Shown piece by piece: positions 17,190 through 40,781 of a DNA stretch of 64,000 nt. The stretch is from assembly GCF_951230155.1 (NCBI RefSeq), contig NZ_CATNVD010000020.1:1-64000 (forward strand), read 5' to 3'. Positions within the stretch are counted from its first letter, which is position 1, and each line of letters opens with the position of its first letter. The notes under the pieces were generated by a model. It made no database searches. It was not told the origin of the DNA and saw nothing but the letters and a program-made list of their open reading frames with translations. This DNA comes from Parablautia sp. Marseille-Q6255 (lineage in GTDB: Bacteria; Bacillota; Clostridia; Lachnospirales; Lachnospiraceae). Made by a program: the position numbers and the translations under genes.

Positions 17190-18640
17190 GAAAGAAAGCG
17201 TTGTGGGATTATTCGGACTCTGGAAGTGACGAAAGATATTCTTTCACCCGACCATAGTAGATCCGTAAAAATTTATTAGCTCCGGCGGTCATGTAGACGT
17301 AATAAGGTTTACCTTGTGCTCGTTTTTTATCAAGGAACTTATAAACTGGATCATCCTGAGGCATGGTTTTGATTAAAACATCCATTACCTGAAAAAGTGT
17401 CTTGCGGAGGTCTGCGGAACCTCGTTTGGAGGTTGGAACACTCTTTTGTTCATAAGAGCCGGATTCATTTACACCAGGGTCTACACCGGCGAAAGCTGTA
17501 ATTGCGCCTTTGTGAGTGAAACGGGAAACATCGCCGATCTCAGCCATGAGTTGAGGACCAAGTGATGGACCTACGCCCTTCATTTGCATGACGATGGGAT
17601 ATTCGGGCAGCTTAGAGGCTGTTTCATTCATAAGAGTGCGAAGTTCTTCTACAGTTGCCGAGGCATTATTGAGTTGGTCAACCGCTTGCTTAATGATAAG
17701 TTTGGTTATTTCATCCTTTGGAAGTACAGGAACAAGCTCCTTTGCTTTTCCATAGATTTCCTCAGCTTTGGATTGGCTGAAGTTGTACTTCTTTCTTTTG
17801 CACCACTTTTGATAGTGGTCTACGAAGGCTTTTAGAGACATTTTACGAACACAGTCCACATGCCAGTAAGTAGATGCAAAATCAACCCATTTCTGGCTGC
17901 CGTCACTACGTGCAGGACTGTCAAAGTAGGTATTGACGCCAGGATAGGTCTGATCAAGGATGCCGATGAGGTTATTCTTCATAGCCGTCTTGTGTTTCAT
18001 ATAAAAGCCGAACTGACGGTTCATGGTTTTGAGCTGATTGCGTAATTCATCCATAACACTATACTGTTTGAGATTTTGCCACTTGTCAAGTGCATATCGG
18101 GCGATTTTGACGGCGTCAGCTTTGTCAGATTTGACTTTGCGAAGGGAATCATTATCAAAATCCTTGATAAGTTTTGGGTTAATGGCGCTGACGAAAAGAT
18201 TTGTCTGGGAAAGCTGATGGGCAAGGACTTCATAATAACGTCCGGTGTGCTCCATCACGATGCGGGATTCACCTTCAATGGAGTTGATGAGTTCTATAAG
18301 TGAATTAATATCACTGGCTGTGTGTTTGATCTCGAAAGGCGTAGCAACAATTTCGCCAAAAGGGCGCATAATAGCAACCATGCTTTTACCTTTAGAAACA
18401 TCGATACCTACTGCGTTCATAAATTTGTCACTCCTTAAAAATTGATCATGCAATGGATAAATACCAGTTTTACTCATTGCCTATTCAATCTACTGTGGTG
18501 TGACACGAATGCGCCTAAGGCGATTCAACCTGCATAAAACGAACGCTGCGAATGAGGAGCTGGTTATCAGTCTACTTAACGGACGCGAAGTCCAAGAAAG
18601 GAAGCCGACATACCGATTGCTCCATCATTATACAGCTTAA
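17190..18640 (-). mobile_element. Second, unrelated IS110-family element (limits approximate)
   Basis: The element is inferred from the transposase at 17209-18420 and its non-coding flanks. The 228 bp between the transposase start and the next gene (18421-18648) contain several short inverted segments, for example GCGCCTAAGGCG near 18511, and are the likely bridge-RNA end. With one copy only, the ends cannot be fixed. The element sits directly against the start of the response regulator gene and may have displaced its native promoter. Confidence 0.55.
17209..18420 (-). CDS. IS110-family transposase (second type)
   Basis: A 403-residue DEDD recombinase quite different from the pair at 8539 and 12089. 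The N-terminal catalytic domain shows AVGIDVSKGKSMVAI, VMEHTGRYYE and VKSDKADAVKIARYAL. The C-terminal part has VMQMKGVGPSLGPQLMAEIGD and FAGVDPGVNESGSY with the expected catalytic Ser. ATG 18420 has AGGAGTGAC seven bases upstream; the open frame runs 19 codons further but without a better start. It appears intact. Confidence 0.9.
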   Translation of the reverse strand: MNAVGIDVSKGKSMVAIMRPFGEIVATPFEIKHTASDINSLIELINSIEGESRIVMEHTGRYYEVLAHQLSQTNLFVSAINPKLIKDFDNDSLRKVKSDKADAVKIARYALDKWQNLKQYSVMDELRNQLKTMNRQFGFYMKHKTAMKNNLIGILDQTYPGVNTYFDSPARSDGSQKWVDFASTYWHVDCVRKMSLKAFVDHYQKWCKRKKYNFSQSKAEEIYGKAKELVPVLPKDEITKLIIKQAVDQLNNASATVEELRTLMNETASKLPEYPIVMQMKGVGPSLGPQLMAEIGDVSRFTHKGAITAFAGVDPGVNESGSYEQKSVPTSKRGSADLRKTLFQVMDVLIKTMPQDDPVYKFLDKKRAQGKPYYVYMTAGANKFLRIYYGRVKEYLSSLPESE

Positions 18641-18648
18641 GCAACAAG

Positions 18649-19365
18649 ATGGATAATTCCTTACTGGCTGTAAGGGATATTAACCATATTTATATTGTAG
18701 TAGAGAAAGAAGAAAAAATTACCAAACAATATTTCACACATAAGCAGGTACCATGTCAGATCGAGACGTTTCAGAGCGTAGAATGGTTTGTCTACGGGCT
18801 GGACGAGGAAGTCTTTGATCTGTACATTCTTGATGTGGAAATGCCGAAGAAAAATGGAATGGATGTAGCGAGGGAAATACGGAAGCGGTATCCTGATCCG
18901 GTCATTATTTTCGTGACGAATTATGTAGACTATGCAGTGGATGCATACGAGGTAAATACATATCGTTATATTCCGAAAAGCATGCTGGAGCAGAAGCTTT
19001 TGAGCGCGTATGATACACTGCTTCCGGAGCTCCTCGCAAAAGAAGAAAGGTATTATGTCATAGAGAAACATACAGATATAGAAAAAATCAGCTATGACAG
19101 TATTATCTATATGCGAAAGGAGGGAAAATATGTAATCTTCTATCACAGTAAAGGAGAGAGCTCGGTCAGAAAGCCGATGTCTGTTGTGTTAGAAGAACTG
19201 AATGCAAAAGAAATTCTGATGATTGATAAAGGATATGCAGTAAATATCAAGCATATCATGGGGCTGAAAAATCATGAGGTATATATGCGGGATGGAACAA
19301 TTCTTCCGGTCGGAGGAATAAAGGTTTCTCAGGTGAGCCAGGCGATCGCTGATTATTGGAAATAG
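18649..19365 (+). CDS. LytTR-family response regulator
   Basis: A 238-residue two-component regulator of the AgrA/LytR type. The receiver domain shows the phosphoacceptor Asp62 in LYILDVEMPKKNG, then IIFVTNYVDYAVDAYEV and Lys in YIPKS. The LytTR DNA-binding domain follows (about 130-235: YYVIEKHTD, ISYDSIIYMRKEGKY, FYHSKGE, LMIDKGYAVNIKHI). The acidic pocket that normally reads DDE/EDE is instead VVEKEEK, so metal binding may be weak. The start lies hard against the IS110 element without a good ribosome site, so the true N-terminus may have been altered by the insertion. It pairs with the kinase genes downstream. Confidence 0.85.
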   Translation: MDNSLLAVRDINHIYIVVEKEEKITKQYFTHKQVPCQIETFQSVEWFVYGLDEEVFDLYILDVEMPKKNGMDVAREIRKRYPDPVIIFVTNYVDYAVDAYEVNTYRYIPKSMLEQKLLSAYDTLLPELLAKEERYYVIEKHTDIEKISYDSIIYMRKEGKYVIFYHSKGESSVRKPMSVVLEELNAKEILMIDKGYAVNIKHIMGLKNHEVYMRDGTILPVGGIKVSQVSQAIADYWK

Positions 19366-19441
19366 GAAATGCTGCAGCAGGCAGATAAAACAATAAAGTG
19401 TGCAAGTAAACCAGATGATTGCCAGGGAGTTGGGAAGAGTT

Positions 19442-20914
19442 ATGGATAAAATCATTTTAAGTACAATTGCTAATATGTTAGAAACGAGCGTCGGAATATG
19501 GATATTTGGAAGGGTGTTTTCAAGGCGAGAACGATACGGTATTCCACAGCGGATTGCGGGATGGATATGGTATTCATTAATGTCGTTCGTTATTGGCTGG
19601 AATTTTCTGGGGAGTCAATCTGTTTTTATTAAAATAGCAGGATATTTGGCCCCAGTGCTTTTGTATTTTTTGTGTAGACTATTTACTGCCCGGAAAGCGG
19701 GGATACAGATTTGGGAACATAGTTTCTTACTTGTCTTGTTCGCCTTGATGACCGGACTGCTGGCATGGAATTCCCAATTTGGCTATATATCAAATTTATT
19801 GACAATACTAGGAGGTGTTTTTACTCCATTTTGTCTGTTTGTATTATATCAGTGTAAAGGCATACAAGCGTATTTATGGGGATTTTTTTATCTTTCTAGT
19901 ATAGGGATTTTTAAAGCAATTTATTTTGTTTATGAAAGTCAGACAAAAAATTTAGAGTGGGTGAGAGATTCAAAATTGTGTACCTACGGGAGCATATTTT
20001 ATGAATACGCAATAGTGCTTTTCATTATTTTACTTGTCTATTTTGGAAAGACAGATGAATTGCTTAAACGTTTGTTTCACCAATATAAGAAAATAATTTT
20101 CTTTATTGCAGCCGGATTTGTCTGCGCTACAAGTTTTATGATGTATCTTGCTGAATACGGATTTACTACGCGAGAGGCGGCGTTAGTACTTGGAATATTG
20201 ATCTGTCTTGTACTTTCTTTACTGTTTGTTATTGCCGGAAATTTTTTGAAAGCAGAGCAGACAGAGAAAAGACTGCTGGAAGTAAGAAATACTGCGGTAG
20301 AATAGCAATATCAAGAATTACAAAAAGCTTACGAACAAAACAGGCGTTTTGTACATGATCAGAAGCATATGATACAGTATTTGGAGGAATGTCTAAGCAG
20401 GGGAGAAGTACAAAAAGCAGAGTCGTTTTTAACACAGTATAAAGATGGAGCAGCACAATCTGCTCCCAGGACATGGACAGGAATTTCTACGCTTGATTTC
20501 ATACTGAATATCAAAAGCAGGGCTATGAAACAATCGGGAATTACTTTTGATTTAAAGGCTGAATTGGATGAGATTATGATGGACGAATCTGATTTTGTAG
20601 TTCTGATGGGTAATTTATTTGATAATGCAATAGAGGCAGCCAGAAAATGTGCATTGGAAGAAAGAAGGATAGCTTTATCAGTTCGAACTGCCAATCGGAT
20701 GCTTTTGATTCAAATGGAAAATACTAGTAAAGAGATGCCTGGTAAAAAACAAGGACGTTTTATAACTACAAAGCAGAATGCAGATCAACATGGGTGGGGA
20801 ATCGAGAGTATGAAGTACATTGTACAGAAATATGGAGGAGATATTTCCTTCCGTTATGATGAGTCAAAGTTTTGCGCTGATATTATAATAAACGCCAGAG
20901 AAGCATCAAATTAG
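19442..20914 (+). pseudogene. GHKL (AgrC-like) sensor histidine kinase, first tandem copy, broken by TAG
   Basis: The copy starts MDKIILSTIANMLETSVG and has about six transmembrane segments, then an in-frame TAG at 20303-20305 (AVE*QYQELQKAYEQNRRF). The same frame continues to 20914 with the phospho-accepting His (RFVHDQKHMIQYLEE), N box LMGNLFDNAIEAARK and G box GWGIESMKYIVQKYGG. The intact neighbour at 20980 reads AVEQQYKEL, so a CAG to TAG change is the only break. The two products would be a membrane sensor without a kinase and a soluble kinase core. Readthrough cannot be excluded from sequence alone. Confidence 0.9.
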
Positions 20915-20979
20915 GTAATTGATAAATGTTTTGGTGGTGCTGCAGATCAACCAGATGATCGCCAGGGGGGGGAAGAGTT

Positions 20980-22446
20980 ATGGATAAAGTGATTTTGGCT
21001 TTGAATACAATCGCAAGTTTTCTCGAAACTGGAATCGGGATATGGATATTCAGCAAAGTATTCCCCAAGAGAGAACGATATGGTATACAGCACCAGATTA
21101 CAATATATGTGTGGTATTTTTTGACTGTGATATTTTTTTATTTTAATTTTGTCAAAAGTGCATGGACAGTGGTATATGTTGTGGGATGTGTGATTCTTCT
21201 GGCAGGACACATCGTGCATAAAAGATTCAGAAAAGGAAAAGGTGAAAACACGATTCTCTTTCTTTGCCTGACGGCTGTGATGTTTTGTTTGCTGGCAAGA
21301 AATTCGTGGTATGGATATCTGGCAAATGGTATGGATTTGCTGGGTGGGGTTCTTCCGCCATTGCTTCTTTTTGCAGTATATCAGTGTAGTTTTTTACAGG
21401 CATATTTGTGGGAATTTTTTTATCTCTCAAGTACAGGGTTATTGAAACTGATGTATTTTATATATGCCAGCCAAACACAGGGAATAGTCTGGTATAACCA
21501 TATGAAACTGAATACATATGAGAGCATTGGTTATAAGTTCCTGATAATTGTATTTGTTCTTGTACTGATACGATTTTTTCCAATGGAATATTTGGTTGAA
21601 CGCTTATTGACTGTATATAAAAAGTGGATGCTTTTAATAACAGGAATGATTTGGGGTTTTACTTATTACATGACAATGCTTGGAAAAGATCAGTTCAATA
21701 TCAGTGAAATGACAGTTATGCTGGTGGCTACGATTTGCTTACTTATAAGTCTGCTGCTGGCGATTTCTAAAGCTTTTATTAAAGCAGAAAAGGCAGAAAA
21801 AAATTTATATGAGGTAAGGAATACAGCGGTAGAACAGCAGTATAAAGAATTACGCAGAGCCTATGAACAGAATCGCCGGTTTGTCCATGACCAAAAGCAT
21901 ATGGTGCAGTATTTGGAAGAATGTCTAAGCAGGGGAGAAGTACAAAAAGCAGAATCGTTTTTGTCCCAGTATAAGGATGGTACGACTCAATCTGCTCCCA
22001 AAACATGGACAGGGCTACCTACACTTGATTTCATACTGAATATCAAAAGCAGAGCCATGGAACAGGCTGGAATTACTTTTGAGTTAAAAGCTGGGCTGGA
22101 TGAAATTATGATGGATGAGGCTGATTTTGTGGTTCTGATGGGTAATTTATTTGATAATGCAATAGAAGCAGCCAGAAAATGTGCATTAGATAATAGGAAA
22201 ATCTTTTTATCACTTCAAACTGTTAATCAGATGTTTTTGATTCGGATGGAAAATACTAGCATAGAGATGCCAAAGAGAAAACAAGAGCATTTTATGACTA
22301 CAAAGCAGAATGAAGAGCAGCACGGGTGGGGAATCGAAAGTATGAAGTACATTGTACAGAAATATGAAGGAGATATTGCCTTTCATTATGATGAGTCAAA
22401 GTTTTGCACTGATATTATAATAAACGCCAGGGAAGCAACAAATTAG
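20980..22446 (+). CDS. GHKL (AgrC-like) sensor histidine kinase, second tandem copy, intact
   Basis: A 488-residue membrane kinase: several transmembrane helices in residues 1-270, a short coiled linker (RNTAVEQQYKELRRAYEQN), the phospho-accepting His in RRFVHDQKHMVQYLEECL, and a GHKL ATPase domain (LMGNLFDNAIEAARK, GWGIESMKYIVQKYEG). It is a paralogue of the broken copy before it; similarity extends into the short upstream and downstream flanks, showing a tandem duplication. It most likely phosphorylates the LytTR regulator at 18649. No AgrB/AgrD peptide genes are near, so the signal is unknown. Confidence 0.9.
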   Translation: MDKVILALNTIASFLETGIGIWIFSKVFPKRERYGIQHQITIYVWYFLTVIFFYFNFVKSAWTVVYVVGCVILLAGHIVHKRFRKGKGENTILFLCLTAVMFCLLARNSWYGYLANGMDLLGGVLPPLLLFAVYQCSFLQAYLWEFFYLSSTGLLKLMYFIYASQTQGIVWYNHMKLNTYESIGYKFLIIVFVLVLIRFFPMEYLVERLLTVYKKWMLLITGMIWGFTYYMTMLGKDQFNISEMTVMLVATICLLISLLLAISKAFIKAEKAEKNLYEVRNTAVEQQYKELRRAYEQNRRFVHDQKHMVQYLEECLSRGEVQKAESFLSQYKDGTTQSAPKTWTGLPTLDFILNIKSRAMEQAGITFELKAGLDEIMMDEADFVVLMGNLFDNAIEAARKCALDNRKIFLSLQTVNQMFLIRMENTSIEMPKRKQEHFMTTKQNEEQHGWGIESMKYIVQKYEGDIAFHYDESKFCTDIIINAREATN

Positions 22447-22540
22447 GTAATTGATAAATGTTTTGATGTTTCTATTTGCATACCAGATGTTTCCGGAGGA
22501 CAGCAGGGGTGAGCATCTCGTTTTAAAACCGGAGAGAGAA

Positions 22541-22811
22541 ATGTCATCGAAACGTGGCATTTCTGGAGGGTATAAAAGAGAAGTGTAAACAAATCGTGGC
22601 ATTACGAAGTCGAAAACGAATAAAAAGCAACGAAACGTGGCATACCAGAGGCAGGTGAGAGGAGAAAAAGCAACGAAATGTTGCACTTCTGAGGCGGTTC
22701 AGAAAAGATATGCAACAAACTGTTGCATATGAATGAAAAATACAAAAGGAATGTCAACGAAACGTGGCATATGCAAGGCGAAAGAAGAAGAAAAGCAACA
22801 AAACGTGTCAA
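22541..22811. repeat. Array of seven palindromic 20-bp motifs at a 42-bp pitch
   Basis: Copies start at 22541, 22583, 22624, 22667, 22709, 22751 and 22792, giving steps of 42, 41, 43, 42, 42 and 41 bp. The consensus is close to AAAGCAACGAAACGTGGCAT, an imperfect palindrome around AAA; the fifth copy is a perfect one (TGCAACA-AAC-TGTTGCA). The 21-23 bp between copies are much less conserved but often purine-rich (GAGG, AGAAGA). A 42-bp pitch is four helical turns, so all motifs lie on one face of the DNA. No convincing gene runs through the region on either strand. Confidence 0.85.
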
Positions 22812-22836
22812 AACAGAAGGGTACGCAGGAAAACTG

Positions 22837-22870
22837 AAAAAGTACGGACGCATGTGGTCCGTACTTTTTT
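22837..22870. terminator. Bidirectional terminator between the kinase and marR
   Basis: AAAAAGTACGGAC (22837-22849) pairs with GTCCGTACTTTTT (22857-22869), with a 7-base loop, an A run before and a T run after. It can terminate both the kinase transcript and the convergent marR transcript. Confidence 0.85.
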
Positions 22871-22915
22871 CGTGATCTTTCCAGATTTTTCTGTCGGGCA
22901 GCTCCAGGAAAAAGG

Positions 22916-23368
22916 CTAGGAAGAATGCCCTGTGATTTCATCGGCAGTATCCCCGATGATGGTAAACAACCGGATAATATCGTCTGCTTTGTTCAGGCCG
23001 ATCTTGGACATGAACTGTTCAACCAGCATCAGCGCTTTTTCGTGCATATTCTGGTACAGAGGGGATGTATGGTTGATGAATACGTAGACCTGTCGTTTGT
23101 CCAGCGAAGAACGTTCGCGAAAGATCAGCCCTTTGTCCTCCATACTCTGCAGCGTACGGTTCATCTGCGACTTTAACATTTTGGTCGCGCGGCACAGATC
23201 TGTCGCTGTCAGGGGAGCGTCCGGGCAATGGAGCTGATTGCGGTACAGCAGGTGGCAGATCACTGCCTCGTTGAGCGGCATATCAGAGACAAGCCGGTTG
23301 TTGCTGACACTCATGGACAGGTACAGCCATGCGTTTAATACTTCTTCTATTTTTTGATTCTGATCCAT
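22916..23368 (-). CDS. MarR-family transcriptional regulator
   Basis: A 150-residue winged-helix regulator. After an N-terminal dimerisation helix, the DNA-binding part runs LTATDLCRATKMLKSQMNRTLQSMEDKGLI and the wing RERSSLDKRQVYVFI. Proteins of this family usually repress a nearby transporter or detoxification gene when not bound to a small ligand. The divergently transcribed neighbour is a GNAT acetyltransferase gene, a possible target. ATG 23368 has GGAG six bases upstream. Confidence 0.88.
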   Translation of the reverse strand: MDQNQKIEEVLNAWLYLSMSVSNNRLVSDMPLNEAVICHLLYRNQLHCPDAPLTATDLCRATKMLKSQMNRTLQSMEDKGLIFRERSSLDKRQVYVFINHTSPLYQNMHEKALMLVEQFMSKIGLNKADDIIRLFTIIGDTADEITGHSS

Positions 23369-23413
23369 AGGGCTCCTTTTTTGTGGTGCACAAGTTATGA
23401 TTGCTACTACTTA

Positions 23414-23442
23414 TAATAATAACTGGCAGGAAGACAGTCAAT
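23414..23442 (-). promoter_or_regulatory. Promoter of the marR gene
   Basis: On the minus strand, TTGACT (23442-23437), 17 bp, TATTAT (23419-23414), 45 bp before the start codon. Confidence 0.7.
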
Positions 23443-23565
23443 CGTGATTTTGGACAAAAACCGCTTTTTTCTGTCAAAAGAAGATGATATAATAAATCCT
23501 GTCGAGCGGGGACAGGCGCAGCCTGTTCATCGGGAGAGGCAAATGATGAGTTTGAGGTGACGGAT

Positions 23566-24063
23566 ATGGACATTACGATACGTCCGGCAAGGGCAGATGA
23601 GGCCGGAATGCTGGCGGCGATCGAGGCGGAATGCTTTCCGGCAGCAGAGGCGGCTTCTGGTGAAGAGATCGCCAGGCGGCTGCGGACCTTTCCGGAAAAT
23701 TTTCTGGTAGCGGAGGCAGATGGCGTGCCGGCAGGATTTATCAATGGAGGGACGACAGATCGCCCGTATCTGCCGGATGCGCTTTACCATGATACCAGTC
23801 TGCACTGCCCGGATGGAGCATGGCAGACGGTATTTGGGCTGAATGTACTGCCGCAGTATCGCAGGCGTGGGATCGCTGCGCGTCTGGTGGAGGATTTTCT
23901 GGCGCTTGCCTGCAAAAGAGGGAAGCTAGGGGTGATCCTTACCTGCAAGGAGCATATGATCCCCTATTATGAGCGCTGTGGATTTGTGCGGTATGGCGTG
24001 GCAGATTCGTCTCATGGAGGGGCAAAGTGGTACGATATGAGAAAGGTTTTCAGAAAAGAGTGA
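23566..24063 (+). CDS. GNAT-family N-acetyltransferase
   Basis: A 165-residue acetyl-CoA-dependent acetyltransferase. The N-terminus is ITIRPARADEAGMLAAIEAECFP, and the acetyl-CoA-binding motif is VLPQYRRRGIAARLVEDFL, followed by LTCKEHMIPYYERCGFVRYG. ATG 23566 follows GAGGTGA; an in-frame GTG lies three codons upstream. The acceptor substrate is unknown. It is followed after 10 bp by the C_GCAxxG_C_C protein gene, so the two are probably co-transcribed. Confidence 0.88.
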   Translation: MDITIRPARADEAGMLAAIEAECFPAAEAASGEEIARRLRTFPENFLVAEADGVPAGFINGGTTDRPYLPDALYHDTSLHCPDGAWQTVFGLNVLPQYRRRGIAARLVEDFLALACKRGKLGVILTCKEHMIPYYERCGFVRYGVADSSHGGAKWYDMRKVFRKE

Positions 24064-24073
24064 GGAGTACTGT

Positions 24074-24502
24074 ATGTTAAAGGATATCGCGAAAAAGTAT
24101 TATGAGATGGATTATAACTGCGCAGAGTCGATCGTACATGCCGGGAATGAATACTACAGACTGGGTCTGAGTGAGCATGATATGAGAATGACAGCGGCCT
24201 TTGGCGGTGGTCTTCAGGTGGGAGATGTGTGCGGGGCGCTTACAGGGGCTGCCTGTGTGGTTTCAGCAAAATACGTTACAGACAGGGCGCATGAGCAGAA
24301 GGAAGAGCTGAAGGCAGTGATGATGAGGCTTGTAAAGGCGTTTCAGACAGAGCTTGGAGCCAGGCTCTGTGCAAAGATCAAGGCGGAGCATTTTGACCGG
24401 GAGGTGAGGTGCCTGAACACAGTTATGACTGCGGCACAGGTCCTGGAGGATGTTATACGCAGCTTTGATGAGGAGCAGGAAAGAGACAGTAAAAATAAAT
24501 GA
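24074..24502 (+). CDS. C_GCAxxG_C_C family (putative redox) protein
   Basis: A 142-residue protein matching the family named for its spaced cysteines: NCAESI near residue 15, GDVCGALTGAACVVSA in the middle, then ARLCAKIK and VRCLNTVMTAAQVLED. The cysteines are thought to bind metal or take part in electron transfer, often beside oxidoreductases, but no precise role is established. The next gene, 15 bp on, is an AAA+ ATPase. Confidence 0.85.
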   Translation: MLKDIAKKYYEMDYNCAESIVHAGNEYYRLGLSEHDMRMTAAFGGGLQVGDVCGALTGAACVVSAKYVTDRAHEQKEELKAVMMRLVKAFQTELGARLCAKIKAEHFDREVRCLNTVMTAAQVLEDVIRSFDEEQERDSKNK

Positions 24503-24517
24503 TGAGGAGTATCTGAT

Positions 24518-25999
24518 ATGCCGGTATTTGATTTTAATGGCAGCCCGGATAAAAACGAAGAGCCGGTCTGCACTTATACAGTTTTTCGCTCGGATGAGTC
24601 CGGACCTTGTGCGGAGCGTCCGATCCTTGTGCTGGATAACAGGCAGAGGCTGTGGGATCATTATTCCTGCGGTGTTTTTACGAATCCGGCCAAACGCACG
24701 GCATTTGAATTTGCACAGGAGGGGGAGACGCTGCGCGCGGATATAAAAAAGCTGGATGCGCGTTTTGTCAGCCTGCTGCGCTGGCTGGGCGGGCATCGTA
24801 TCCCGGTGCGTCTCTCCGGGGAAAATACGCAGGAAGGATATGCGGTTTACCGCATCCGTGAGACGGCGTTTGGCAGAGGGACAAAGCTTTCCGCGGAGGA
24901 CGGCTTTTTGCAGTTTATGATTGAGCGGCTCCTGGCAAGCAGCGCTCCTCCGGAAGAGGCAGAGGATGAAGACCAGGAAGAGGCCGGAGATGAGATGAAG
25001 CTTACGAGTATCCAGAGCATTTCGGACTTTATGACATGTGCCGGACGGACACTTCCGGATAATATACGGCTGTGGGCGCGCCGCAATCTTGCTGTGACGC
25101 GGTCAAATGAGGTCTCGGCGGAGGAACGCCGCCATGCACAGCGCGCGCTTTCTATTATGATGAATATCCAGTGGAAGAACAATTATTTTGAGTCTATCGA
25201 TCCGGTGGAGGCGCGGCGGATCCTGGATGAGGAGCTTTATGGCATGGAACGTGTGAAGCAGCGTATTATGGAGACGATCATCCAGATCAACAGGACGCAC
25301 ACGCTCCCGGCATACGGGCTTTTGCTGGTCGGTCCGGCGGGGACCGGAAAGTCGCAGATCGCGTATGCGGTGGCGCGTATTCTGAAGCTTCCGTGGACGA
25401 CTCTGGATATGAGCTCCATCAATGATCCGGAGCAGCTTACTGGAAGCTCCCGTGTGTATGCAAATGCAAAGCCGGGTATCATCATGGAGGCATTTTCCGT
25501 ATCAGGAGAATCGAACCTCGTTTTTATCATTAATGAGCTCGATAAAGCTTCGGCGGGGAAGGGAAACGGAAATCCTGCGGATGTTCTGCTGACCCTCCTT
25601 GATAATCTGGGATTTACGGATAATTATATGGAGTGCATGATCCCCACGGTGGGGGTCTATCCGATCGCAACGGCCAATGATAAGGAACATATCAGTGCTC
25701 CTTTGATGTCCCGTTTTGCAGTCATTGATATTCCGGATTATACGCCGGAAGAAAAGAAGATCATTTTTTCAGATTATGTCATGCCCAAGGTACTGCGGCG
25801 CATGAGCTTAAAGGCGGAAGAATGTATTGTGACGCCGGATGCGGCGGAGGCAGTAGTTGCCCGGTTTGCAGGTACGACAGGGATCCGCAGCCTGGAGCAG
25901 GCGGCAGAGCATCTGGCAGCCAACGCGCTGTATCAGATCGAGGCGGAGCATGCGGGATCCGTCGTGTTTGACGCGCAGGCAGCAGAGCGGCTGCTGTAG
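24518..25999 (+). CDS. Lon-like AAA+ ATPase lacking the protease domain
   Basis: A 493-residue cytoplasmic protein. Residues 1-150 form an unrecognised N-terminal domain, followed by an acidic linker (EEAEDEDQEEAGDE). The AAA+ module starts about 230: LDEELYGMERVKQRIME as in Lon, Walker A GPAGTGKSQIA, Walker B LVFIINELDKAS, sensor 1 IATANDKEHI with Arg-rich SRFAVID, and sensor 2 GIRSLEQAAEHLA. The frame ends where Lon would begin its Ser/Lys peptidase domain, so it is a remodelling ATPase or a partner-dependent factor. Its substrate is unknown. Confidence 0.82.
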   Translation: MPVFDFNGSPDKNEEPVCTYTVFRSDESGPCAERPILVLDNRQRLWDHYSCGVFTNPAKRTAFEFAQEGETLRADIKKLDARFVSLLRWLGGHRIPVRLSGENTQEGYAVYRIRETAFGRGTKLSAEDGFLQFMIERLLASSAPPEEAEDEDQEEAGDEMKLTSIQSISDFMTCAGRTLPDNIRLWARRNLAVTRSNEVSAEERRHAQRALSIMMNIQWKNNYFESIDPVEARRILDEELYGMERVKQRIMETIIQINRTHTLPAYGLLLVGPAGTGKSQIAYAVARILKLPWTTLDMSSINDPEQLTGSSRVYANAKPGIIMEAFSVSGESNLVFIINELDKASAGKGNGNPADVLLTLLDNLGFTDNYMECMIPTVGVYPIATANDKEHISAPLMSRFAVIDIPDYTPEEKKIIFSDYVMPKVLRRMSLKAEECIVTPDAAEAVVARFAGTTGIRSLEQAAEHLAANALYQIEAEHAGSVVFDAQAAERLL

Positions 26000-26071
26000 C
26001 GGCGCAGTGCGCAGGGGAACAGACTGCTTTGGGAAGGATGCAGAGGAAAAGAGCGGAGGAAAAGGGCAGGA

Positions 26072-37780: not shown

Positions 37781-37850
37781 GAAAAAGAAGGAGTATGGAA
37801 GATAAACTATTATCTTGAAGAAAAAGTATTGAACAGGGAGGAGAATGGTG

Positions 37851-40781
37851 ATGAAAGTTAAAAAGAGCTGTATGAGGTTATTGATTATTGTGATAATCAC
37901 AAGCATTTGGTTTATGTCAGTGAATACTTTGCAATCGAAGGCAGCGCCAATTTCGGCAGGAGAAGTGCAGACACGTTTAAGTTCTGTAATGAAACAGTAT
38001 CCTAAGGGTTCTTTGTGGACACAGAGTTTTGCGGGCGGTTCGCAATGCTATGCATTTGCACACAAAGTATTTAATACGATTTTTGAACGCGGCAGCAGAC
38101 AGGTGGGGAATGGCGCACTTTCCAGCAATAGTACCTGTTACAAATTGAATAATGTTGCATCAGATATAACGACGATAGGAACTCTGGCACCGGGATACTC
38201 TCTGGCAAGTTTGGAATCGTTACTTGAAAAGGCGGCTCCGGGTGACTATATACAGGTAAAAAGAAATGGATCAGGGGGACCGCATTCCATGATTGTAGTT
38301 AATGTGAATGCAGGGTCAAATACTATTGAGATATACGATGCAAATGCAGTAGCCCAAAATACAGTGGGGCATTATACACAAACCTTTGATTATTTTAAAC
38401 AGAGAAACGCAGGGGTTTCGGTATATCGATATAAGGATTATATCAAAGGACATAACCCAGAGGGTGCATGCGATATCACAGGGATAGCAGGTGGAATTAA
38501 AATAACTGGTTGGGCATTGGACAAGGATAGAAAGTCAGAGGCCTTATCGATACATGTTTATGTGGGGGGACCAGCAGGTAAAGGAGAGTCACATGCAATT
38601 GCGGCAAATGTATATAGACCAGATGTTCCCGTTAATTTGGCAGATCCTGCTTTAGGAAATTATCATGGAATTGATAGCGTTATTCGTACACAAAAAACAG
38701 GAAAACAAGAGGTGTATGTGTATGCTATCAATGTGGGGGCTGGAACGGATCATACGATAATTGGACATACGACAATAAATATACCAAAAGATACAGAAAA
38801 ACCTAAAATTGCAAATGTTAAAGTGTCGAACATTACGAAGGATAGCTATACAGTTTCATTTACCGCAACAGATAATGTGGGAATTGACAAGGTTTGGTTG
38901 CCTTCATGGTCAGTGAATAATGCTCAAGATGATATTAAAGATGAATCGTATACAAAATCGGGAAATACCTATTCGTTTCAAGTAAAACGTTCTGTGCACA
39001 AAAATGAGTGTGGACCGTATCGAAGTGATATATATGTTTATGACAAGGCGGGCAATTATAATTGGGCGACAGTAAATGAAGCAGGGGTGTCGCTTTTACA
39101 TTATGAAGTGACTGATCCAGCTGTGTCAGCGACATGTACAACAGCCGGAAAGACAGCCGGAAAGCACTGCTCAGTATGTAAAAAAGTAATCACAGCCCAG
39201 AAAACGGTACCAGCGAAAGGGCATATGGAAGTAGTCGATCCAGCTGTGTCAGCGACATGTACAACGGAAGGCAAGACGGAAGGAAAGCACTGCTCAGTGT
39301 GTAAAAAAGTAATTACAGCACAGAAAACGGTACCGGCAAAAGGACATACAGAGGTAATCGATCCGGCAGTGGAAGCAACGTGTACGACGGCAGGAAAGAC
39401 GGCAGGCAAGCATTGTTCAGTATGTAAAAAAATAATTACGGAACAGCAAACTGTACCGGCAAAGGGACATACAGAAGTAGTCGATCCGGCAGTGGAAGCA
39501 ACGTGTACGACGGCAGGAAAAACGGCAGGCAAGCATTGTTCAGTATGTAAAAAAGTAATTACAGAACAGCAAACCGTACCGGCAAAGGGACATACAGAAG
39601 TAGTCGATCCGGCAGTGGAAGCAACGTGTACGACGACGGGAAAGACGGCAGGCAAGCATTGTTCAGTATGTAAAAAAGTAATTACAGAACAACAAACCGT
39701 ACCGGCAAAGGGACATACAGAAGTAGTCGATCCGGCAGTGGAAGCAACGTGTACGACGGCGGGAAAAACGGCAGGTAAGCATTGTTCTGTATGTAATGCA
39801 GTGATAACGGCGCAGCAGGTAGTTCCGGCGAAAGGACATACAGAAGTAATTGATCCGGCGGTATCAGCAACGTGTGCAACAGCAGGAAAGACCGCAGGAA
39901 AACACTGTTCCGTATGTGGCGCAGTGTTGGCAGTACAGCAGACGATTTCTGCGAAGGGGCATTATTACGGAAATGGTGTAATTACAAAAGAAGCAACGGA
40001 GTATGCTACCGGTATTATGACATATATATGTAATACGTGTGGCGATAGGAAAACAGAGATAATTCCAAAGAAAGTTTCCAAGCCGCAGGATAAGCCTTCA
40101 ATAGAGAAACCATTTGAACCTACTCGTCCGGCAGTGCCGCAAAGACCCGCGGAGACAGAAAAGCCGTTACAGTATCCGGAATCTGAAAATAAAGTATTGC
40201 CACAGGGCACGGTATTGCGCGACAGTACGAGTGAGGGAATCTATCGGGTGGCATCTTCGGGGGCGACACAAAAAGAAGTAACCTATGTGGGAACGACACA
40301 AAAAGGTTCGACTGTAAAAATTCCGAATACTGTAGTTTTGCAAGGTGTAAAATATGATGTGACAGTGATTGCGCCGCATGCTTTTGCAGGAAATAAAAAG
40401 CTGAAAAAGGTAGTGATCGGAGCAAATGTTGCAGTGATAGGGGATAATGCATTCAGTAATTGCGTTAATCTGAATTCAGTTGAGCTTGGGAAGAATGCGA
40501 AAGTGATAGGAAACAAAGCTTTCTATAAGTGTAGTAAGCTGAAAAAGATTAAAATTCCTGCACGAGTTGAAAAAATAGGAAAACAGGCATTTTATGGTTG
40601 CAAAAAATTGTCGCAGATCACAATTCAGACAAAGAAGCTGAGCACAAAAAAAGTAGGGCAAAAGGCATTTGAGAAAATCTATGATAAGGCAACAGTAAAA
40701 GTGCCCGGAAGTAAAATGAAAACGTATAAGAAGGTTTTGAGGGCAAAGGGAATCAGCGCAAGGGTAAAAATAAAAAAGTAA
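37851..40781 (+). CDS. Large secreted protein: peptidase-like, GBS_Bsp-like, 41-residue repeats and LRR_5 domains
   Basis: A 976-residue exported protein with a signal peptide (residues 1-33, ending SKA). Residues about 60-200 carry a Cys/His pair in GSQCYAFAHKVF and GGPHSMIVVNVN, resembling a papain/CHAP-like cysteine peptidase or amidase. A beta domain with GWALDKDRKSEALSIHVYV and a GBS_Bsp-like repeat follow. Residues 417-703 are seven tandem 41-residue repeats (HTEVVDPAVEATC, GKHCSVCKKVI, TVPAKG), each with a lone Cys and a CxxC. The C-terminus is BspA-like leucine-rich repeats (IGDNAFSNCVNL, IGNKAFYKCSKL). No LPxTG is seen. ATG 37851 has GGGAGGAG at proper distance. The gene is AT-rich compared with its neighbours, suggesting transfer. 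Confidence 0.85.
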   Translation: MKVKKSCMRLLIIVIITSIWFMSVNTLQSKAAPISAGEVQTRLSSVMKQYPKGSLWTQSFAGGSQCYAFAHKVFNTIFERGSRQVGNGALSSNSTCYKLNNVASDITTIGTLAPGYSLASLESLLEKAAPGDYIQVKRNGSGGPHSMIVVNVNAGSNTIEIYDANAVAQNTVGHYTQTFDYFKQRNAGVSVYRYKDYIKGHNPEGACDITGIAGGIKITGWALDKDRKSEALSIHVYVGGPAGKGESHAIAANVYRPDVPVNLADPALGNYHGIDSVIRTQKTGKQEVYVYAINVGAGTDHTIIGHTTINIPKDTEKPKIANVKVSNITKDSYTVSFTATDNVGIDKVWLPSWSVNNAQDDIKDESYTKSGNTYSFQVKRSVHKNECGPYRSDIYVYDKAGNYNWATVNEAGVSLLHYEVTDPAVSATCTTAGKTAGKHCSVCKKVITAQKTVPAKGHMEVVDPAVSATCTTEGKTEGKHCSVCKKVITAQKTVPAKGHTEVIDPAVEATCTTAGKTAGKHCSVCKKIITEQQTVPAKGHTEVVDPAVEATCTTAGKTAGKHCSVCKKVITEQQTVPAKGHTEVVDPAVEATCTTTGKTAGKHCSVCKKVITEQQTVPAKGHTEVVDPAVEATCTTAGKTAGKHCSVCNAVITAQQVVPAKGHTEVIDPAVSATCATAGKTAGKHCSVCGAVLAVQQTISAKGHYYGNGVITKEATEYATGIMTYICNTCGDRKTEIIPKKVSKPQDKPSIEKPFEPTRPAVPQRPAETEKPLQYPESENKVLPQGTVLRDSTSEGIYRVASSGATQKEVTYVGTTQKGSTVKIPNTVVLQGVKYDVTVIAPHAFAGNKKLKKVVIGANVAVIGDNAFSNCVNLNSVELGKNAKVIGNKAFYKCSKLKKIKIPARVEKIGKQAFYGCKKLSQITIQTKKLSTKKVGQKAFEKIYDKATVKVPGSKMKTYKKVLRAKGISARVKIKK
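39099..39959 (+). repeat. Seven tandem 123-bp repeats in the surface protein gene
   Basis: Seven units of exactly 123 bp, each coding 41 residues beginning His-x-Glu-Val. Units 3 to 6 are nearly identical at DNA level, which favours copy-number change by slippage or recombination. An eighth, much diverged unit (HYYGNGVITKEAT) follows. Confidence 0.9.

Follow-up and report, generated by a model that had tools for sequence, protein, structure and literature searches.

Seven related motifs stand in one row between the second of two tandem GHKL sensor kinase genes and a marR gene, in a stretch of DNA of 64,000 nucleotides that was analyzed as a whole (hereafter the window), and this locus raises the question of what such a row of sites may serve for and which protein might bind it. 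The features concerned are the following:

18649..19365, plus strand: LytTR response regulator of the same locus
20980..22446, plus strand: GHKL sensor kinase, second of two in tandem, 3' end toward the array
22541..22560, plus strand: copy 1, ATGTCATCGAAACGTGGCAT, 3 mismatches over the 15 positions of GCAACRAAAYGTTGC
22583..22602, plus strand: copy 2, GTGTAAACAAATCGTGGCAT, 4 mismatches, the weakest of the copies
22624..22643, plus strand: copy 3, AAAGCAACGAAACGTGGCAT, 1 mismatch
22667..22686, plus strand: copy 4, AAAGCAACGAAATGTTGCAC, 0 mismatches
22709..22728, plus strand: copy 5, TATGCAACAAACTGTTGCAT, arms perfect, 1 central mismatch
22751..22770, plus strand: copy 6, ATGTCAACGAAACGTGGCAT, 2 mismatches
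22792..22811, plus strand: copy 7, AAAGCAACAAAACGTGTCAA, 2 mismatches
22836..22870, both strands: terminator-like hairpin between the array and marR
22916..23368, minus strand: MarR-family regulator, 3' end toward the array

An array of seven sites and its origin

A first, sequence-only reading had reported seven copies starting 41-43 bp apart, and the array is real: seven copies of about 20 bp, all in the same orientation, occupy positions 22541-22811, with successive starts 42, 41, 43, 42, 42 and 41 bp apart. At a threshold of 14 identical bases out of 20, the region holds seven copies as compared to a mean of 2.5 and a maximum of 4 in dinucleotide shuffles, none of the 60 reaching seven; eight copies (one of them outside the array) are found at 13/20 and six at 15/20, with shuffle maxima of 6 and 2, respectively. 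Moreover, the five matches to GCAACGAAACGTGGCA with up to three mismatches in the 64-kb window, where 0.45 were expected, all lie within the array, whose consensus is AAAGCAACRAAACGTKGCAT. With a PWM, the copies score 20.1-28.4 and the best match elsewhere in the window 13.9; copies 1-7 rank 8, 12, 2, 1, 4, 5 and 3 among 127,962 positions, a ranking that is partly circular since the sites behind the PWM were picked using the pattern. Tandem Repeats Finder, at a score of 40, did not report the array. The motif, formerly described as a 20-bp imperfect palindrome, thus stands as a motif, while its palindromy is uneven: in the GCAAC/GTTGC register, 2, 2, 4, 5, 5, 3 and 3 of the 5 arm bases pair in copies 1-7, and only copies 3-5 are good palindromes.

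Regarding the origin of the array, the spacers can be aligned with one another (their mean alignment score was reached by none of 300 shuffles), and for this reason the array is the product of a tandem duplication, apparently an old one. The mean pairwise identity is 0.71 for the motifs and 0.59 for the spacers (0.54 when shuffled), in a comparison that favors the spacers, these having been aligned with gaps and the motifs without. On these figures, the motif is better kept than the spacers since the duplication. The spacers do drift more than the motifs, as had been noticed when the array was called unlike a young tandem duplication; being alignable, they nevertheless speak for a duplication, apparently an old one. 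The repeats being only 71% identical and the spacers homologous, the array lacks the near-identical repeats and unrelated spacers of a CRISPR array, which had rightly been set aside. A decayed protein-coding repeat, named beforehand as one of the findings that would refute the sequence-only reading, is unlikely since the one-base shifts alter the frame from copy to copy; the open minus-strand frames agree with plus-strand spacers 77% of whose bases are purines.

The same figures bear on a functionless relic, i.e., an operator fragment that was tandemly duplicated and is now decaying, its motif having been preserved by chance. Homologous spacers, the degenerate copies 1 and 2 and the confinement of the array to one of the genomes examined would all fit such a history. 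However, a motif identity of 0.71 next to spacers at 0.59, close to the 0.54 of shuffled sequences, suggests that the sites were kept and the spacers were not, which makes a relic somewhat unlikely in our opinion.

The regular spacing had been interpreted as selection for helical phase, each copy being four turns of DNA from the next. Relative to a 42-bp grid, copies 1-7 have offsets of 0, 0, -1, 0, 0, 0 and -1, i.e., three one-base departures of which one is compensated, and the second sites found near related operators (see below) are 16-41 bp away. As 42 bp is at the same time the duplication unit and second sites occur at other distances, the step from four turns to selection is a weak one.

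A repeated RNA hairpin had been proposed too, and could correspond to hairpins in the 3' UTR of the kinase gene or to backup terminators behind marR on the minus strand. Copies 4 and 5 are terminator-like on the minus strand, and, on both strands, the interval 22530-22880, which includes the terminator, gives a better fold than its shuffles do (z -5.87 and -4.77). Against this, four of the seven copies pair only 2-3 of their 5 arm bases, Rfam gave no relevant match up to an E value of 5 over 18000-26000, and elsewhere the same dyad stands upstream of genes. We consider such an RNA-level element quite unlikely. A type III toxin-antitoxin system, in which RNA antitoxin repeats are followed by a terminator, would share with this locus its tandem repeats of about 42 nt and the terminator-like hairpin behind them; it is nevertheless barely credible, with no plausible toxin gene behind the array among frames of at least 80 aa and among nine proteins compared to Pfam, a plus-strand frame behind the array that is antisense to marR, a GNAT gene as the next gene and no relevant Rfam match.

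The neighboring kinase and marR genes converge on the array, in which no promoter-like match was found. The MarR and LytTR regulators of the locus had been put forward as possible binders; the window holds no PWM match of at least 14 outside the array, and, the promoters of these genes being without a site, they are unlikely binders. Among the relatives of the flanking genes (17 marR loci in 16 other genomes and 22 kinase loci, with flanks of about 1.5 kb), there is no array and at most a single weak match; within the genus, the closest relatives of marR share 36-47% identity with it. One marR relative (L089) is followed at 1904-2055 by a 40-bp repeat in 3.6 copies, made up of the 3' end of that gene and its trailing sequence: this is a duplicated gene tail, unrelated to the array. 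The first of the two tandem kinase genes (19400-20914), which shares 59% identity with the second, has its frame broken by one in-frame TAG.

Sites elsewhere in the same genome

Outside the array and open frames, the best sites of the genome belong to two prophages and to the upstream regions of the two contig-28 XRE genes (L121):

G000:C28:15425-15778: 118-aa XRE protein, two sites upstream of its gene
G000:C1:443000-447490: prophage L026, motif pair at 2614/2637
G000:C27:1500-6000: prophage L028, motif pair at 2142/2175

Upstream of the first contig-28 XRE gene, the two sites have 1 and 4 mismatches to GCAACRAAAYGTTGC, and the single site upstream of the second gene has 3. A 19-base pattern allowing up to three mismatches gave 27 matches in the genome vs. 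17 for its reversed control. The six matches with 0-1 mismatches are three array copies and three prophage sites, and the six with two mismatches comprise the other site of one prophage, one site per contig-28 XRE gene and three more, of which two are inside open frames and one is intergenic with no XRE gene seen; copies 5 and 6 of the array appear at three mismatches, and copies 1 and 2 exceed this limit. A shorter pattern yielded three 1-mismatch matches inside open frames and, at three mismatches, no excess over the reversed control in this genome (162 vs. 168). By our count, the genome has 14 recognizable sites (seven in the array, a pair in each prophage and three at the XRE genes, the first of which has two), and the array thus holds 7/14.

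In both prophages, the motif pairs adjoin tail-fiber cassettes and genes for XerC-like, shufflon-like recombinases, and stand immediately before a AAACACGAATAC junction; the core of copy 7, GCAACAAAACGTGTCA, is identical to the prophage site at C1:445637-445652. The pair of L026 is upstream of the recombinase gene; in L028, where this gene is oppositely directed, the pair is behind it. Lying so near cassette junctions in both prophages, the motifs could be recombination sites of a tyrosine-recombinase shufflon. Yet no good motif match accompanies the homologous recombinase loci, five in number, from other phages (the best one scoring 11.2, in L117), and the motif is therefore not part of the recombination site. 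AAACACGAA is present in L114 and L117, and inspection by eye recognized AAACACGG in L115, L116 and L117, while L118 showed neither of the two; the 64-kb window lacks the core patterns CACGAATAC, CACGAAGAC and AACACGAA, and a shufflon at this locus is very improbable. The nine neighboring proteins scanned include no tyrosine recombinase.

A conserved element upstream of XRE/HTH_3 regulator genes

With the contig-28 XRE protein as a query, matches were obtained in 33 of 250 genomes of the family (E<=1e-12), the 39 matches listed giving 30 loci. Within 250 bp upstream of the gene, GCAACRAAAYGTTGC with up to two mismatches is found at 12/30 loci (that of the genome itself included) vs. 0/30 in each of five control windows, and with up to three mismatches at 16/30 vs. 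0-2/30. As GCAACRAAAYGTTGC had been derived from the window, the test was repeated pattern-free: 29 foreign XRE genes were chosen by protein homology alone and, over the 200 bp preceding them, GCAAC-N5-GTTGC came out on top of 11,264 palindromic dyads, being present at 11/29 genes vs. 0/174 control windows (p=7.5e-11), with the caveat that the 29 genes are homologous and that the sites of L164, L165, L171 and L180 look like one related group. Several of the other top-ranked dyads are registers of this same site. The motif of the array matches, then, a conserved element upstream of a class of XRE/HTH_3 regulator genes and, among the options of the sequence-only reading, an operator array has the most support, its motif being the top dyad of this pattern-free search.

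The array itself contains the site common to the upstream regions of the XRE class, copies 1 and 2 resembling it weakly (3 and 4 mismatches); it lacks the position of an operator at a promoter under its control, with no promoter-like match and genes that converge. At position 16, five of the seven copies have G and the XRE class mostly T. Moreover, 18/29 foreign genes of the class are without a site at up to two mismatches. The genome itself has 49 HTH_3 matches: two are the contig-28 genes and, among the other 47, none of the 28 examined has a site. The exact motif occurs in 18 other genomes among 397 of the family, once in each; its reversed control gave 8 matches in 5 genomes, so that the excess is only about twofold. 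Of these 18 occurrences, 11 lie outside frames longer than 100 aa, and 4 precede an HTH_3 gene by 35-120 bp.

The PDB sequence nearest to the contig-28 XRE protein is 7T8I (E 1.3e-10), named as an Xre-family regulator of ICEBs1, which we take to be ImmR; the protein also weakly resembles the NCBIfam models RstR and DicA, below their cut-off. ImmR is said to bind six regions at two promoters (PMC4207663).

The motif family had been suggested to be perhaps common in related genomes, and this is true of one or two sites at XRE promoters and not of arrays. A two-unit model of the array gave no second array among 47 genomes of the genus and 397 of the family (sets that overlap and include the genome itself), in a search whose stricter filters can lose weak matches. 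In the genus, the model matched 13/47 genomes at E<=0.1, with 9.7e-4 as the best value outside the genome itself. Among the 397 family genomes, the sole foreign match at E<=1e-3 (G200, 8.2e-5) is a double site, 28 bp apart, directly upstream of a gene matching the contig-28 XRE protein. A search of the genus with one mismatch, which had matches in 32/47 genomes, is uninformative because the reversed control is equally frequent.

A genome scan returned 34 loci, about 30 being estimated by chance. By eye, four of them are near XRE-like genes (L189, L193, L194 and L205, of which L194 is apparently from the same genome as L059 and not independent) and one (L192) is beside a recombinase gene like that of L026. 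L205 has, upstream of an XRE gene similar by eye, one perfect site and a poor second one; as the match coordinates coincide, its genome is probably G032, a member of the genus, and it has no array either. In L192 (550-900), from a further Lachnospiraceae MAG, the recombinase-like gene is preceded by two sites, one perfect and one poor, the latter with 5 mismatches. In L193 (2150-2600; Bacillus sp. B15-48), several sites resembling GCAAC-N5-GTTGC lie, by eye, next to XRE-like genes, in what resembles a phage immunity region. A viral scan gave 17 loci; most of the ten checked by eye are seemingly in coding sequence, and in L033, whose score pattern is the same as that of L038, the sites stand between two HTH_3 genes. 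Among phages and plasmids, the array had no BLAST match. In the parts of the literature covered by our search, the letters of the operator were not found as an operator, one match being to an attB site. Similar cores also occur in genomes of the genus (L221, L223 and L224) within terminator-like hairpins, by eye seemingly in one shared context.

A putative titration site for an XRE regulator

Judging from sequence, the array is most likely a homotypic set of operator-like sites for a lambda-repressor-like regulator of the XRE/HTH_3 type, the best candidate being the contig-28 protein, and would act as a titration (decoy) site; we hold this reading tentatively, at a probability of about 0.45. 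A passive action is proposed because the flanking genes converge, no promoter-like match is present and half of the recognizable sites of the genome are gathered here, and titration is judged most likely because the gene of the likely binder has sites of its own. A unit of about 42 bp was repeatedly duplicated, its sites being then kept better than its spacers. We infer that one protein, the putative 118-aa binder, physically binds all seven operator-like sites, which have no promoter-like match among them, and the array would in this way passively lower the concentration of free regulator. As the sites upstream of genes probably control their promoters, such a decrease may in turn tune the regulator's own gene and other genes that have one or two sites, probably including the shufflon-like recombinase gene of a prophage. 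Several observations count against an operator reading, namely the poor copies 1 and 2, the G at position 16 in five copies, the presence of the array in a single genome among those examined, the 18/29 foreign class genes without a site, the small or absent excess of the motif over reversed controls and the similar cores in terminator-like hairpins.

The converging genes, together with the single orientation and the 41-43 bp spacing of the sites, might also be expected of an architectural element or road-block, where the regulator, bound to seven sites, would compact or silence the locus or halt converging transcription in the manner of stoperators. Nonetheless, a terminator-like hairpin for both strands is already present and the spacing is not kept in related pairs of sites, and we deem such a role quite unlikely.

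The titration reading finds partial parallels in known systems. In phages and ICEs, XRE/HTH_3 repressors likewise have near-palindromic operators, often a pair, in front of their own genes, whereas here seven sites in tandem are without a promoter-like match and the regulator gene is on another contig. The operators OI and OII of pLS20 are clusters of repeated motifs too (a1-a7 and b1-b4), to which the binding of Rco is cooperative; those clusters, however, serve divergent promoters through looping (PMC4207663). DnaA titration sites such as datA also form a binding-site cluster away from promoters that is discussed as titrating a protein; that protein is a replication initiator and the cluster is conserved among E. 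coli strains, as opposed to the XRE regulator and the single genome of the present case. The stoperators of mycobacteriophages are repressor sites outside promoters too, but asymmetric ones scattered over the phage genome, unlike one compact chromosomal array. In synthetic DNA sponges, one operator is repeated with spacers of 10-30 bp, which lowers the free regulator, except that they are engineered and the array is natural (PMC7686491). The literature search, as far as the sources retrieved extend, showed no like case of a natural tandem decoy array in bacteria. Decoy sites having been much modeled and engineered, a compact natural array that could be deleted in one step would allow a test in a living genome; a testable operator is offered, moreover, for a class of XRE regulators spread over many genera of the family.

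Finally, there is a hint that prophage genes for tail-fiber switching carry the same sites as the array. A dedicated chromosomal decoy could set the free level of the host XRE protein and couple the dose of this regulator to prophage tail-fiber switching via the sites at the recombinase genes, a scenario that we consider unlikely. The two prophages look able to switch their tail-fiber ends, with an XerC-like recombinase, AAACACGAA junctions in both orientations and alternative fiber ends, and the end of contig 1 falls inside a cassette common to both. Elsewhere in the window, a gene for an IS110-family transposase (17209-18477, minus strand) is near the LytTR gene, and within a 978-aa gene at 37845-40781 a 123-bp unit of 41 aa, which includes a CSVCK motif, is repeated 6.5 times at 39114-39917.
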